Assembly: GCF_003075455.1 (NCBI RefSeq)
Contig: NZ_QDAE01000002.1
Coordinates: forward strand, 124,001-188,000
From: Arthrobacter sp. Bz4
Lineage (GTDB): Bacteria > Actinomycetota > Actinomycetes > Actinomycetales > Micrococcaceae
DNA length: 64,000 nucleotides
Direction of reading: 5' to 3'
Under the pieces are notes generated by a model. That model was not told where the DNA came from and ran no database searches. It worked only from the letters and a program-made list of their open reading frames with translations. The translations under genes were made by a program, and so were the position numbers. Shown piece after piece: positions 22,648-25,484 of the stretch (position 1 is the first letter of the stretch; the number at the start of each line of letters is the position of its first letter).

Positions 22648-22695
22648 AGAGGCAGTCAGAACCAGAGGCAGTCAGGACCAGAGGCTGTCCGCCCA
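22648..22695. repeat. Three 16-bp tandem repeats
   Basis: Units CAGAGGCAGTCAGAAC, CAGAGGCAGTCAGGAC and CAGAGGCTGTCCGCCC follow each other without a gap. The array overlaps the last codons and the stop of the 63-residue minus-strand gene, so the 3' end of that gene is part of the repeat. Probably a replication-slippage product. Confidence 0.75.
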
Positions 22696-22863
22696 GGCGG
22701 CATCGCGCAGGTAGTCCCTGGCCGGTCCAACCTCCCACAATTCGCCACGGGAAGCGAGCACACCCTGCACCAGCATGTCCTCAAGGGTGTCCGGTGAGCA
22801 CCCCAGAGCCTCACTGAGTTCCCGCACATCGGTTGCCAGGATGACATCATTGCTAATCGCCAT
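22672..22863 (-). CDS. 63-residue protein of the NWEWPK cassette
   Basis: A small acidic protein, mostly helical by composition. TDVRELSEALGCSPDTLEDM looks like a short HTH-type or recognition helix pair, followed by ASRGELWEVGPARDYL and an aromatic tail (AAWADSLWS). I recognise no family. It starts at an ATG with AAGGA about 12 bases upstream, 49 bases after the stop of the SpaB_C-like gene, so it belongs to the same transcript. Its 3' end lies in the 16-bp tandem repeat. It could be a recognition, regulatory or immunity factor. Confidence 0.6.
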   Translation of the reverse strand: MAISNDVILATDVRELSEALGCSPDTLEDMLVQGVLASRGELWEVGPARDYLRDAAWADSLWS

Positions 22864-22912
22864 GGTGCTCTAATCCTTCCGTGGTGCCCTGCTGGTCGGG
22901 TCTGGGTCTGGC

Positions 22913-23911
22913 CTAATTCTGTCGGTAAGTGGGTGACTCGCGTTCGATGCCCCATGACCGGGCGTACAGACCGAGGACTGCCTCTTCACGGGTAGAAAAG
23001 CCCAGCCGATTCAGCGTCAGGTGCGCCTGGTAAACGGTCAGGTGCTGAGCGCTGCGGCTCACCTGGGCCTTGTCGGCGCGGTAAAGATAATTGTCGATCC
23101 CGCGGGACCATCTGCGACGCCAGTTATGCGCCGCAGATTCGGCAGCGGTGGCCGCCATCAAGCCGTGGAAGGCTGAAGCCCGGACCTCCACCTGTGCCGC
23201 CAGGGCCTCACGGACGCCCACCGCGCGGGGGCCCAGGTCAGCGGTGCAGGTTCTGAGGTGACTGTTCCAATAAAAGTCCCAGCTGATTCGCCGCCGGTCA
23301 GGCCAACCAGCAGATCGTGGGCCTTTCATCATGCTCCGTGCAGAGTCGAAAAGGATCAGCGCACCGAACGCCGATCGGTTGTGCATCTTGGGGAAACGTC
23401 GGCTGGCCCATGAGGCCAGCTCGGAGGAGAGTTCGAAGACCTCTTCAGCAAGTTGGAGACCTGCAACCCCACCGTATTTCTCGAGGTCGGCTTCCAGCTT
23501 CCTTCTGATCTCATTGCCACTGGATTTATCGGAGCCCGGGGGCAGCTGGCTGCCCGCTGGTGAGGAGAGGTACTGCCGGACGTGCAACCCAGCCACAGCG
23601 CTGGGGTTTGCGCCGCCAAGGTCCCCCGCGGTGGCCCGGGCCCGGAAGGTGGCAAGCGAGGTCTGAAGACTGGCAATTGCGGCGGGACTGGCAAGAACGT
23701 GAAGCCGCACCTGAGGCACCGTTGGTTCCTCACCCCGGGTGAAGAACCAACGGCTGGCCCCCAAAAGCTGAGCCTGCGCCGCCAGTGGGGTGACCAGATC
23801 TTCAATGATGCCGTCCGCTACATCGAAGCCACCGGTAAAGAGCGAGAGATGCCACCATTGAGTGCTGTTGGCGGTTCGTGAGGCGTTTCGAACTGCAACC
23901 AGCTGACTCAT
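22913..23911 (-). CDS. Stand-alone SpaB_C / thiopeptide-type domain protein
   Basis: A 332-residue protein resembling the C-terminal domain of LanB lantibiotic dehydratases, which in split enzymes performs glutamate elimination or, in thiopeptide pathways, cycloaddition. Visible marks are WWHLSLF (residues 19-25), SRWFFTRG with PQVRLHV (53-72, where the family usually has HLRLR), LEKYGGVAGLQLAEEVF (143-159) and AHLTLNRLGFSTREEA (296-311). No N-terminal glutamylation domain, cyclase or dehydrogenase gene lies nearby. I start at 23911, where AAGGAGAG is 6-7 bases upstream, rather than at the longer open frame to 23968. It lies 85 bases downstream of the NWEWPK peptide gene and probably shares its transcript. 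Confidence 0.75.
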   Translation of the reverse strand: MSQLVAVRNASRTANSTQWWHLSLFTGGFDVADGIIEDLVTPLAAQAQLLGASRWFFTRGEEPTVPQVRLHVLASPAAIASLQTSLATFRARATAGDLGGANPSAVAGLHVRQYLSSPAGSQLPPGSDKSSGNEIRRKLEADLEKYGGVAGLQLAEEVFELSSELASWASRRFPKMHNRSAFGALILFDSARSMMKGPRSAGWPDRRRISWDFYWNSHLRTCTADLGPRAVGVREALAAQVEVRASAFHGLMAATAAESAAHNWRRRWSRGIDNYLYRADKAQVSRSAQHLTVYQAHLTLNRLGFSTREEAVLGLYARSWGIERESPTYRQN

Positions 23912-23996
23912 AGCTCTCTCCTTCCGGATGTTGGTCACCGCCACTGGGGCGAGTCTAAGTGCTGCCATCCCGACGGGAATCGGTCAAAACAACCTG

Positions 23997-24134
23997 CTAT
24001 TTCGGCCACTCCCAGTTGTCTGCCATCACCGTTTTAGGCCATTCCCAGTTCGCCGCGCTGAGCTCGGGACTGGTAGAGGCAACGACACTCATGACGACTA
24101 GAAGACCGGCTACTGTGCCGACAATCTTTTTCAC
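23997..24134 (-). CDS. 45-residue secreted peptide with two NWEWPK repeats
   Basis: A short gene with a strong site (AAGGGGGG, six bases before GTG). The product has a basic start (KKIVG), a hydrophobic core (residues 4-19), small residues before the cleavage area (ELSAA), then NWEWPK, TVMAD, NWEWPK and the stop. Both copies follow an Ala-x-Ala-like or MAD stretch, so processing could release two hexapeptides. The copies use different synonymous codons (GAA/GAG, CCT/CCG), suggesting selection at the protein level. It is the first gene of a cassette with the SpaB_C-like gene and the 63-residue gene, divergent from a LuxR-type regulator. A secreted signal or ribosomal peptide precursor is the likeliest role, but unproven. 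Confidence 0.72.
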   Translation of the reverse strand: MKKIVGTVAGLLVVMSVVASTSPELSAANWEWPKTVMADNWEWPK

Positions 24135-24153
24135 GAGAACCCCCCTTGAGTGG

Positions 24154-24163
24154 CCACATGTGG
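24154..24163. promoter_or_regulatory. Perfect palindrome just upstream of the peptide gene
   Basis: CCACATGTGG lies 20-29 bases before the GTG of the peptide gene, directly upstream of its ribosome site. The position suits an operator overlapping the promoter or transcript start. Function inferred. Confidence 0.4.
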
Positions 24164-24220
24164 TGGTGCGTCGGCGGAAGTGATGCCGATACCCACAACC
24201 ATGAGCCGCTGGCTCTATCG

Positions 24221-24254
24221 ATGTCCAGCCAGATAACCACCCTGTTCTGGACAT
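24221..24254. promoter_or_regulatory. Inverted repeat ATGTCCAG-N18-CTGGACAT
   Basis: Perfect eight-base arms (24221-24228 and 24247-24254) with an 18-base spacer in the middle of the divergent region. A related half-site, GTGGACAT, is at 24388-24395 before the regulator gene. The spacing would place both arms on one DNA face if a dimer bound two turns apart. Confidence 0.45.
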
Positions 24255-24515
24255 GGCCTAAAGATGACTAAATGGCAGATTTCTGCCGGCGCAACCAACG
24301 CTCGCAAGACCCCAATACCCGCACCCGTCCAAGGGAAATCCGCTCCTGGGGCGGAACCGCGACAGGCATCAAGCACTGTGTCATAAAGTGGACATGTCAT
24401 GTTTTACAGCGCCATGATCGACCTATCAGGCGGCGCTGCACAACCGAATCGCCCCGCGAGGAAACAGGTCGGTAGGCTACAGGCAGGTGTGCCGCCATAC
24501 CGGGGAGGAATGTTC

Positions 24516-25484
24516 ATGCTCGACGGACTAGGTCTAGAGCTCTACCGCTACGCCGTCGCCCACCCCGGATGGACGCGTCAGGGTGCCTCGGAGGCCCTTG
24601 GTTACACCCTGAGGGACATTGATTCCGCGACGAACCAGCTCAGTGAGCGGAAGCTGCTCAGCTCACATGCAGCGGATTCGGACGCGTTCGTCGCGATTTC
24701 GCCCGACGTCGCGCTGGCCGATCTGGTTGACGCTGACGAGCGCCTCGTCCAGGACTTGAAGAGTCGGATCAACACCAGGCGCCTCGAGCTATCCGGCCTG
24801 GTTCCCCTCTACCTCGAAGCCCGCAGGGACGTCCTCTCCAGCGCATCGGTTGAGGTGCTCGAGGACCCGCACCTGATTCAACGGGTGTTGATCGAGTATG
24901 GTCGGGACGTTTCCGAGCACGTGTTGATGGCTGTCCCCGGCCAGGGCGCGAATGCAGATTTCCAGGAGGAGAACGTCAGGAAGGACGTCGACCTGCTGAA
25001 GCAGGGCGTGAACCGCAGGAACCTCTACGACCTCAGTACCCGCGACCACATGCCGACCCGCAAGGCGGTGAAAGCGATTGCTGCGGAGGGCGGCGAGTTC
25101 CGCACTTTGCCGTCGGTGCCATTCAGGATGCTGATTTTCGACCGGAAACTCGCTGTGGTGGCTCGGCAGCTGACGAGCGACGACAAGGCCGCGATGATGA
25201 TCCGCGACCCTAACCTGGTGAACGTCTTCATTCGGTTCTTCAACTTCACCTGGGAGTTCGCCGAGCCGTTTCCAACGGAGGAGGATACGGTGTCGCCGCT
25301 CAATGGAACCCAGCAGGCAATTCTTGCGGGCCTCGCTGCCGGCTACTCGGATGAGGTTATTGCCCGGCGCCTCGATCTCAGTGTACGCACGTGCAGACGG
25401 CACATTGCCTGGATGCTCGAGGCATTGAAGGCTGACAGTCGATTCCAGGCGGGCGCGAAGGCCCGCGATGCGGGCTGGATCTGA
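24516..25484 (+). CDS. Regulator with TrmB-like N-terminus and LuxR HTH
   Basis: A 322-residue transcriptional regulator. Residues 1-50 form a TrmB-like winged helix (LELYRYAVAHPGWTRQGASE, LSERKLLSS), a middle sensing region follows (about 60-255, with a phospholipase-D-like strand/helix pattern), and the C-terminal 60 residues form a LuxR-type HTH (LAAGYSDEVIARRLDLSVRT then CRRHIAWMLEAL). The ATG at 24516 sits six bases after GGGGAGGA; an ATG at 24510 is too close to that site. It is divergent from the NWEWPK peptide cassette and is the natural candidate to control it, perhaps sensing the peptide or its modified form. Confidence 0.82.
   Translation: MLDGLGLELYRYAVAHPGWTRQGASEALGYTLRDIDSATNQLSERKLLSSHAADSDAFVAISPDVALADLVDADERLVQDLKSRINTRRLELSGLVPLYLEARRDVLSSASVEVLEDPHLIQRVLIEYGRDVSEHVLMAVPGQGANADFQEENVRKDVDLLKQGVNRRNLYDLSTRDHMPTRKAVKAIAAEGGEFRTLPSVPFRMLIFDRKLAVVARQLTSDDKAAMMIRDPNLVNVFIRFFNFTWEFAEPFPTEEDTVSPLNGTQQAILAGLAAGYSDEVIARRLDLSVRTCRRHIAWMLEALKADSRFQAGAKARDAGWI

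Follow-up and report, generated by a model that had tools for sequence, protein, structure and literature searches.

A Trp-rich peptide gene beside a lone LanB C-terminal-domain enzyme in Arthrobacter and related genera: a conserved gene set that looks like an undescribed peptide-making system

Introduction

Stand-alone enzymes of the SpaB_C type, such as TclM and TbtD, belong to thiopeptide and pyritide systems, and the cores of thiopeptides are rich in cysteine and serine. In NisB, R826 has a role in the elimination domain, and TsrE oxygenates an indole. Short peptides are also produced or used in other ways. Microcin C7 is encoded by a precursor gene, mccA, of only seven codons and relies on a ThiF-like enzyme, darobactin has a W-x-W-x-K spacing with cross-links made by a radical S-adenosylmethionine (SAM) enzyme, and the RRNPP/PapR-type systems serve short-peptide quorum sensing in Gram-positive bacteria. 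Here, we analyze a locus in a stretch of 64,000 nucleotides from Arthrobacter sp. Bz4 (Micrococcaceae; contig NZ_QDAE01000002.1, positions 124,001 to 188,000), referred to as the window, in which a gene for a Trp-rich peptide stands beside genes for a lone LanB C-terminal-domain (LanB_C) enzyme, a small protein, and a divergent regulator.

The original prediction for this locus, made from the sequence alone, described four genes within 2.8 kb, three on the minus strand and one divergent, and proposed a peptide-modification or signaling module for which it could name no described family. All four genes lie at the predicted positions in the 3.4-Mb genome, where precursor, enzyme, and small protein follow one another on the minus strand and the regulator is on the plus strand (Table 1). 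A full-text literature search, with most subscription papers outside it, also found no described family having such a set. We are close to certain that the gene set is real and conserved. The Trp peptide, the lone LanB_C enzyme, its small partner, and the switch protein together look like an undescribed peptide-making, and possibly signaling, system.

Results

The gene set recurs across the family

The enzyme alignment (A1) matched 49 of 245 genomes of the family in nine of 32 genera, which are numbered here (g1 is the genus of the window). Within g1, an enzyme match was found in every one of the 38 genomes. For the counts across the family, the best enzyme match in each of the 49 genomes was compared with the best regulator and small-protein matches. 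The gene order was held in 45 of the 49 genomes, and an aromatic-x-Trp peptide accompanied the enzyme in all seven genera in which the peptides were read. The peptide, the SpaB_C-type enzyme, and the regulator, which the original prediction expected to recur as a set if they formed a system, do recur in related genomes, and the opposite outcome, a peptide lacking conservation beside the enzyme, was not what we found.

The precursor peptide is conserved at its Trp-rich end

The precursor gene in the window starts with GTG, preceded by AAGGGGGG, and encodes MKKIVGTVAGLLVVMSVVASTSPELSAANWEWPKTVMADNWEWPK, in which both copies of the predicted Trp-rich tandem hexapeptide NWEWPK are present. A longer open reading frame (ORF) of 85 residues in the program-made list is unsupported because relatives carry ATG or GTG at the start codon of the 45-residue form. 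The product begins with MKK, contains a hydrophobic stretch with a Kyte-Doolittle mean of 2.74 over 12 residues, and has AxA-like sites just ahead of the first NWEWPK. The peptide had been called secreted; the hydrophobic segment and the AxA-like sites are indeed there, and secretion itself would follow from them. Nearly all relatives that were read share the start position, the hydrophobic segment, and an [NS]W[DE]WPK end, with only the C-terminal copy present in L028, L030, and L031. The precursor of Arthrobacter sp. H5 (L001 4835-4909, L005) is MNKIVGASWDWPKSAAASWDWPKSAAASWDWPK, with three copies and without the hydrophobic leader. Cys was absent from all 40 precursors checked.

A 15-base codon motif for W[DE]WPK was found in all 38 genomes of g1 with 73 matches in total, of which 71 lay 86-171 nt upstream of the enzyme gene and two elsewhere, in line with the predicted NWEWPK-type ORF beside the enzyme. 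A reversed control pattern gave 46 matches in the same genomes, meaning that the bare motif is not rare genome-wide and that its number is uninformative. The evidence is therefore its position. In the aligned loci from 30 of the 38 genomes, window included, there were 61 copies, one to three per locus, all conforming to [NS]W[DE]WPK by construction of the search pattern; L001 was left out of this count and taken as the same genome as L005. The core codons vary synonymously (Pro: CCT 2, CCG 22, CCC 34, CCA 3; Lys: AAA 12, AAG 49; Asp: GAC 38, GAT 12; Glu: GAA 6, GAG 5), and the core residues are nearly invariant across the genus.

In six other genera the peptides differ, yet retain the aromatic-x-Trp pattern, either close to the C-terminus or in repeats that extend to it, with forms such as sixfold GVWDWPQQ, IWDWKN, ...WDW, IYDWP, IWAWP, and the seven-codon MKSWDWF. 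The six GVWDWPQQ units of g26 stand behind a Sec-like leader (L044), and a second locus of that genus has four TGGGANTGG motifs at the nucleotide level (L045). The peptides of g5 end in ...QPAIWDWKN (L067) and ...QPAIWGWPQKT (L068), and those of g8, read in 2 of the 10 genomes of that genus, in ...ALIWDW (L073) and ...TAAWDW (L075). In g9 (L074) and g14 (L079) the peptides are MEATFSQILRSGGIYDWPTVA and MTASAARRIWAWPESWPILGRK. The shortest forms come from g32, with MKSWDWF, MMKSWDWF, M[TA][ST]KVWDW[IL], and forms of 16-17 residues with a SIKSWEWF end; the aromatic-x-Trp was seen in 15 of 15 loci read, from 16 genomes with an enzyme match, in ORFs of 7-17 codons. A Sec-like leader is present in g1, g26, g5, and g8, and is missing or very short in g32, g9, and g14.

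Two noncoding blocks were also observed. In the g32 stretches L046-L060, the short ORF is preceded, at a distance of about 50-70 bases, by a block, GGGGGAAGCTTTCGGAGTC, that hardly varies among 14 of the 15 loci; the remaining stretch (L050) stops short of it. Between peptide and enzyme, a GC-rich conserved block can form short hairpins in several genera. When the spacers of the window, L010, L046, L074, L079, and L067 were folded and compared with shuffles, z ranged from 0.61 (window, 23912-23996, minus strand) to -2.00 (L046).

The enzyme is a lone LanB C-terminal domain

The second gene, predicted to be SpaB_C-like, is confirmed as such by the Pfam family PF14028 (Lant_dehydr_C), whose match spans almost the full protein and takes in profile positions 1-248 of 255. 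Against NCBIfam TIGR03891 the enzyme scored 43.3 bits, under the cut-off of 48.45. Profile A1 found no match in the PDB. TsrE was matched by profile A9 at E 0.013 and by A4 at E 0.71; a review includes the TsrE gene among those predicted to be required for the Trp-derived quinaldic acid of thiostrepton (PMC5682303). The LanB N-domain (PF04738) was detected in 1 of the 38 genomes of g1 (G035:C27:3847-4851, L124), which is not that of the window, and LanC (PF05147, LANC_like) in none of the 38 and in 1 of 14 control rings.

Within g1, W55, GG147-148, H297, and R302 are conserved in 28 of 28 aligned rows. We aligned the enzyme to NisB and MibB for the active-site columns. At the column of NisB R784, three split LanB proteins have Arg, and the cassette enzymes have Arg, Lys, Asn, His, Thr, or Trp; that of R826 holds Lys, Thr, Arg, or Ala. 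For H961, the placement of the column is approximate and rests on an HMxxNR-type motif. All 28 genus rows of A1 have His in it and the two g5 rows Gln; the g14 row, from a contig that stops at this point, has Arg. For NisB, H961A is reported to abolish dehydration and R784A to alter it only slightly (PMC4341554). As far as the alignment places these columns, the core His is mostly kept and the other elimination positions are not.

From the class search, the comparison covers matches stronger than E 1e-15. The best of those outside the family, at E 1e-71 to 1e-75, came from five genomes that belong to a single family. Three of their contexts were read, and in each the enzyme gene follows a LanB N-part, an arrangement known as split LanB, and the N-part of L098 was confirmed by PF04738 (33.5 bits, cut-off 28). 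Within the family, g23 (L078 2-4967) combines LanB_N (30.0 bits, cut-off 28) and LanB_C with a small membrane-like protein and a regulator of the same TrmB/LuxR type, which is a possible ancestral arrangement. Split LanB genes occur in g6 as well.

Some copies deserve separate mention. The enzyme was matched in two pieces in G025, G026, and G036, and the first piece of the G025 copy (G025:C25:1847-2781) has four stops, which may reflect a broken gene or a faulty assembly. A second, remote LanB_C match lies on another contig in G035. The g32 genomes have up to seven LanB_C matches each; several of these paralogs are without the H961-type His, and two, in L062 (1736-3479) and L069 (1217-3063), adjoin a GAF-ANTAR gene.

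The small protein follows the enzyme and the regulator faces it

The small protein belongs to no family, its best score (HTH_17, 14.8 bits) being far under the cut-off of 27. It was found in 45 of the 245 family genomes, always 30-155 nt downstream of the enzyme gene and never without the enzyme; four of the 49 genomes with the enzyme, G042, G045, G059, and G102, gave no match to it.

In the regulator, the LuxR-type helix-turn-helix (HTH) is above its cut-off (28.2 bits, cut-off 23.5) and the TrmB-like part below it (18.9 bits, cut-off 22.2). Its profile (A5) had a weak match to TrmBL2 in the PDB (positions 47-250, E 0.024), and neither a tetratricopeptide repeat (TPR) nor an autoinducer-binding domain was found in Pfam with matches listed at E up to 1. 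The regulator gene is divergent, 313-738 nt from the enzyme gene, in 45 of the 49 genomes with the enzyme. It lies 9 kb off in G114 and G176, and in G059, which carries a split LanB, downstream of the enzyme gene on the same strand. G042, which looks like G059 by eye, has no adjacent regulator among the matches listed. In G176, the gap between regulator and peptide gene (L125 2600-11700) holds a dihydroxyacetone kinase gene and, judged by eye, other metabolic genes, none of them part of the system. Related regulators in g24 (L133 3399-7894) and g21 (L134 90-4589) are divergent to a gene for a large protein of the subtilase family.

An inverted repeat marks the locus

The palindrome-rich control region of the original prediction could be located precisely. 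Perfect 8-bp arms, ATGTCCAG and CTGGACAT, lie at 24221-24228 and 24247-24254, and a third half-site, TGGACATG, at 24389-24396 falls on the predicted -35 element of the regulator, whose promoter is a consensus match (one in the sequence, 0.4 on average in shuffled versions). The pattern CATGTCC-N21-TGGACA occurs 311-425 nt upstream of the enzyme gene in 38 of 38 genus genomes, with four additional sites elsewhere, one each in G012, G022, G027, and G036; a control pattern gave no match. In other genera, a related pattern, TGTCC-N22-GGACA, was compared in two genomes of g26, two of g5, and three of g8; one genome of each genus has it exactly, and the others (L045, L068, L075, and L131) have it with one base changed. 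The single g32 stretch read has only the left half of the repeat. At the stringency of CATGTCC-N21-TGGACA, the predicted regulon is local and has one site. These patterns point to a locally acting, self-regulated switch, with the regulator presumably binding the repeat.

The chromosomal site is conserved

On the enzyme side, the window and stretches of g26, g32, and g9 share a gene for alanine dehydrogenase; on the other side, next to the regulator, the window and stretches of g26, g32, g5, and g8 share one for an aminotransferase. The flanking genes were tested against Pfam for the window and for the alanine dehydrogenase of L127, and judged by eye in the others. No match to plasmids or phages was found at E 1e-5. 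Because the chromosomal neighbors are conserved and plasmids and phages gave no match, vertical inheritance of the module at a single place is most likely. Matches in PADLOC and PHROGs were weak and fell on HTH-type stretches (best E 0.02 and 0.006, respectively), and a reading as a mobile bacteriocin or defense system was dropped.

Table 1. Features of the cassette, with positions counted in the window.
Feature	Position	Strand	Basis
Precursor peptide gene, 45 aa, GTG start, NWEWPK end	23997..24134	-	Start position kept in nearly all relatives read
NWEWPK copy 1	24033..24050	-	Sequence; motif match G000:C2:148033-148047
NWEWPK copy 2, exact C-terminus	24000..24017	-	Sequence; motif match G000:C2:148000-148014
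Lone LanB C-terminal-domain (SpaB_C/Lant_dehydr_C) protein, 332 aa	22913..23911	-	PF14028, E 4.1e-19
Small conserved protein, 63 aa, C-terminus YLRDAAWADxxW-like	22672..22863	-	Found only directly downstream of enzyme
Divergent regulator, 322 aa, weak TrmB-like N-terminal part and C-terminal LuxR-type HTH	24516..25484	+	Pfam
Inverted repeat upstream of peptide operon (reverse-strand CATGTCC-N21-TGGACA at 24222-24255)	24221..24255	.	Pattern search
Predicted regulator promoter (TGGACA, 18 nt, CATGAT), -35 overlapping half-site TGGACATG	24389..24418	+	Consensus match only

Discussion

As in loci for ribosomally synthesized and post-translationally modified peptides (RiPPs) in general, a precursor gene lies here beside a RiPP-type enzyme gene, and the two are conserved together. 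With class I lanthipeptide systems having a split LanB, the set shares the Lant_dehydr_C domain; its strongest matches outside the family include split-LanB C-partners, and the split LanB of g23 has the same regulator type adjoining it. However, the set in the window is without LanB_N, LanC, and precursor Cys. Membership of class I lanthipeptides was rejected, with LanB_N in 1 of 38 genomes, LanC in none of 38, and Cys in none of 40 precursors. The thiopeptide and pyritide enzymes are stand-alone LanB_C relatives like this one, and TsrE is a distant match, but the score against their SpaB_C family (TIGR03891) stays under the cut-off, the similarity to TsrE is weak, and the cores are not rich in Cys and Ser as those of thiopeptides are.

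Other likenesses concern the peptide rather than the enzyme. The short precursor, its conserved C-terminal segment, the adjacent cytosolic regulator, and, in four genera, the hydrophobic leader are reminiscent of RRNPP/PapR systems; the differences are a LuxR/TrmB-like regulator without TPR, the fixed LanB_C, and the leaderless g32 ORF of 7-17 codons. Unlike LuxR/acyl-homoserine lactone quorum sensing, the regulator has no autoinducer-binding domain. In part of g32, a seven-codon gene (MKSWDWF) precedes the enzyme gene as in microcin C7, whereas the enzyme is LanB_C-like instead of ThiF-like and the core is Trp-x-Trp. NWEWPK has the W-x-W-x-K spacing of darobactin, which is a resemblance only: there is no radical SAM enzyme among the four genes, and the peptides read in other genera do not keep Lys at that spacing. 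We therefore dropped the idea of a cross-link like that of darobactin.

Our best explanation, in which we place about even confidence, is that the locus is a chromosomally fixed, locally regulated RiPP-like peptide module, in which a former glutamate-elimination domain would have been recruited to Trp-x-Trp. The regulator would bind the inverted repeat, controlling its own gene as well as the peptide operon. The lone enzyme, possibly together with the small protein, would act on the Trp-x-Trp core in the cytoplasm; because the glutamylating half is gone, its reaction would be one other than Ser/Thr glutamate elimination, and a change of the Trp side chain is our first guess. Where a leader is present, the product would leave by Sec; in g32, g9, g14, and Arthrobacter sp. 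H5 it would either take a different route or stay in the cell. Finally, product or precursor would feed back on the regulator as a local signal. The first two of these steps are more likely than the last two. That the enzyme would act chemically on the peptide is what one would naturally expect of a RiPP-enzyme fold fixed next to a peptide with a conserved motif. A signaling role is suggested, more weakly, by the local, self-contained regulator. Of the module first proposed, the recurring four-part set has stood, and the Sec-type leader as its defining feature has not, being absent in Arthrobacter sp. H5 and g32.

Several observations weigh against this RiPP-like module. Sec-type leaders are wanting in g32, g9, and g14 and in Arthrobacter sp. 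H5, and L026 has a single motif copy, which is not C-terminal. Neither g9 nor g14 gave a match to the small protein. The H961 column varies outside the genus, and the R784 and R826 columns vary as well, so the active site is neither clearly intact nor clearly rebuilt. AlphaFold2 models from two-row alignments (window and L001) reached a mean predicted local distance difference test (pLDDT) score of 43.6 and 41.6 and were unusable; no active site is visible for this reason. A very divergent LanB_N could escape detection, since PF04738 finds the split N-parts barely above its cut-off. The lone LanB_C paralogs of g32 have, judged by eye, no clear Trp-x-Trp peptide. Moreover, the regulators of g24 and g21 face a subtilase gene and not a peptide gene, so this regulator type is not peptide-specific and its presence is no proof of peptide sensing.

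The alternative that survives best, which we still regard as rather unlikely, is that the peptide is exported and matured unmodified, as a pheromone or small antimicrobial, and that the LanB_C protein, with or without the small protein, is a non-catalytic peptide-binding, sequestering, or regulatory protein. The varying elimination-domain positions would fit such a protein, and the two g32 paralogs beside GAF-ANTAR genes, with no clear peptide, imply that the fold may have a regulatory use. The g1 leader, with its hydrophobic segment and AxA-like sites before the first repeat, also looks as expected for Sec export. However, pure export leaves unexplained why a leaderless seven-codon ORF stands beside the same enzyme in g32, and W55, GG147-148, H297, and R302 are kept throughout the genus rows.

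We consider it improbable that the peptide is a bacteriocin killing kin, with the small protein conferring immunity. Such a role would account for the tie of the small protein to enzyme and peptide in all 45 genomes that have it, but there is no transporter among the four genes, the core residues hardly change within the genus, and the single fixed chromosomal site with its conserved neighbors gave no plasmid or phage match at E 1e-5. Still less probable is a Trp-codon leader peptide, in which ribosomes stalling at the W-x-W codons under scarce charged tRNA-Trp would attenuate enzyme expression. The g32 enzyme gene is closely preceded by a very small ORF with two neighboring Trp codons, which is what attenuation would call for, as are the conserved GC-rich block between ORF and enzyme and its hairpins, best supported in L046. 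The window, on the other hand, has no terminator-like site between peptide and enzyme, its spacer folds no better than shuffles, and no Rfam match was found at E up to 0.1. The conserved Asp/Glu, Pro, and Lys, the hydrophobic leader, and up to six full repeats indicate instead that the peptide itself is the product. A decayed class I lanthipeptide or thiopeptide cluster, with the LanB_C as a relic and the Trp peptide as an unrelated small protein, is very improbable: the strongest outside relatives do sit in split LanB systems where the context was read, and the G025 copy shows stops, but the enzyme is in every genus genome with the N-domain in only one, the order of the genes is held, and the aromatic-x-Trp peptide goes with the enzyme in each genus read.

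Returning to the RiPP-like module, a bolder form of it may be entertained tentatively, with clearly less confidence than the module itself: a new RiPP-type signal class of Actinomycetota, defined by a freed LanB elimination domain, a leader-independent Trp modification, a minimal Trp-x-Trp peptide of down to seven codons, and a TrmB/LuxR-type protein as a receptor dedicated to a single operon. Because the module is small, keeps to a single chromosomal site, and has a match in each genus genome searched, it can be tested directly. If the peptide is modified by the enzyme, a well-known half of a lanthipeptide enzyme would have acquired a reaction of its own on peptides that contain Trp, and few natural substrates for such chemistry would be as small as the seven-codon precursor. 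Sensing of the product, if it takes place, would give bacteria like Arthrobacter a chromosomal type of peptide signaling unmet in the literature searched.

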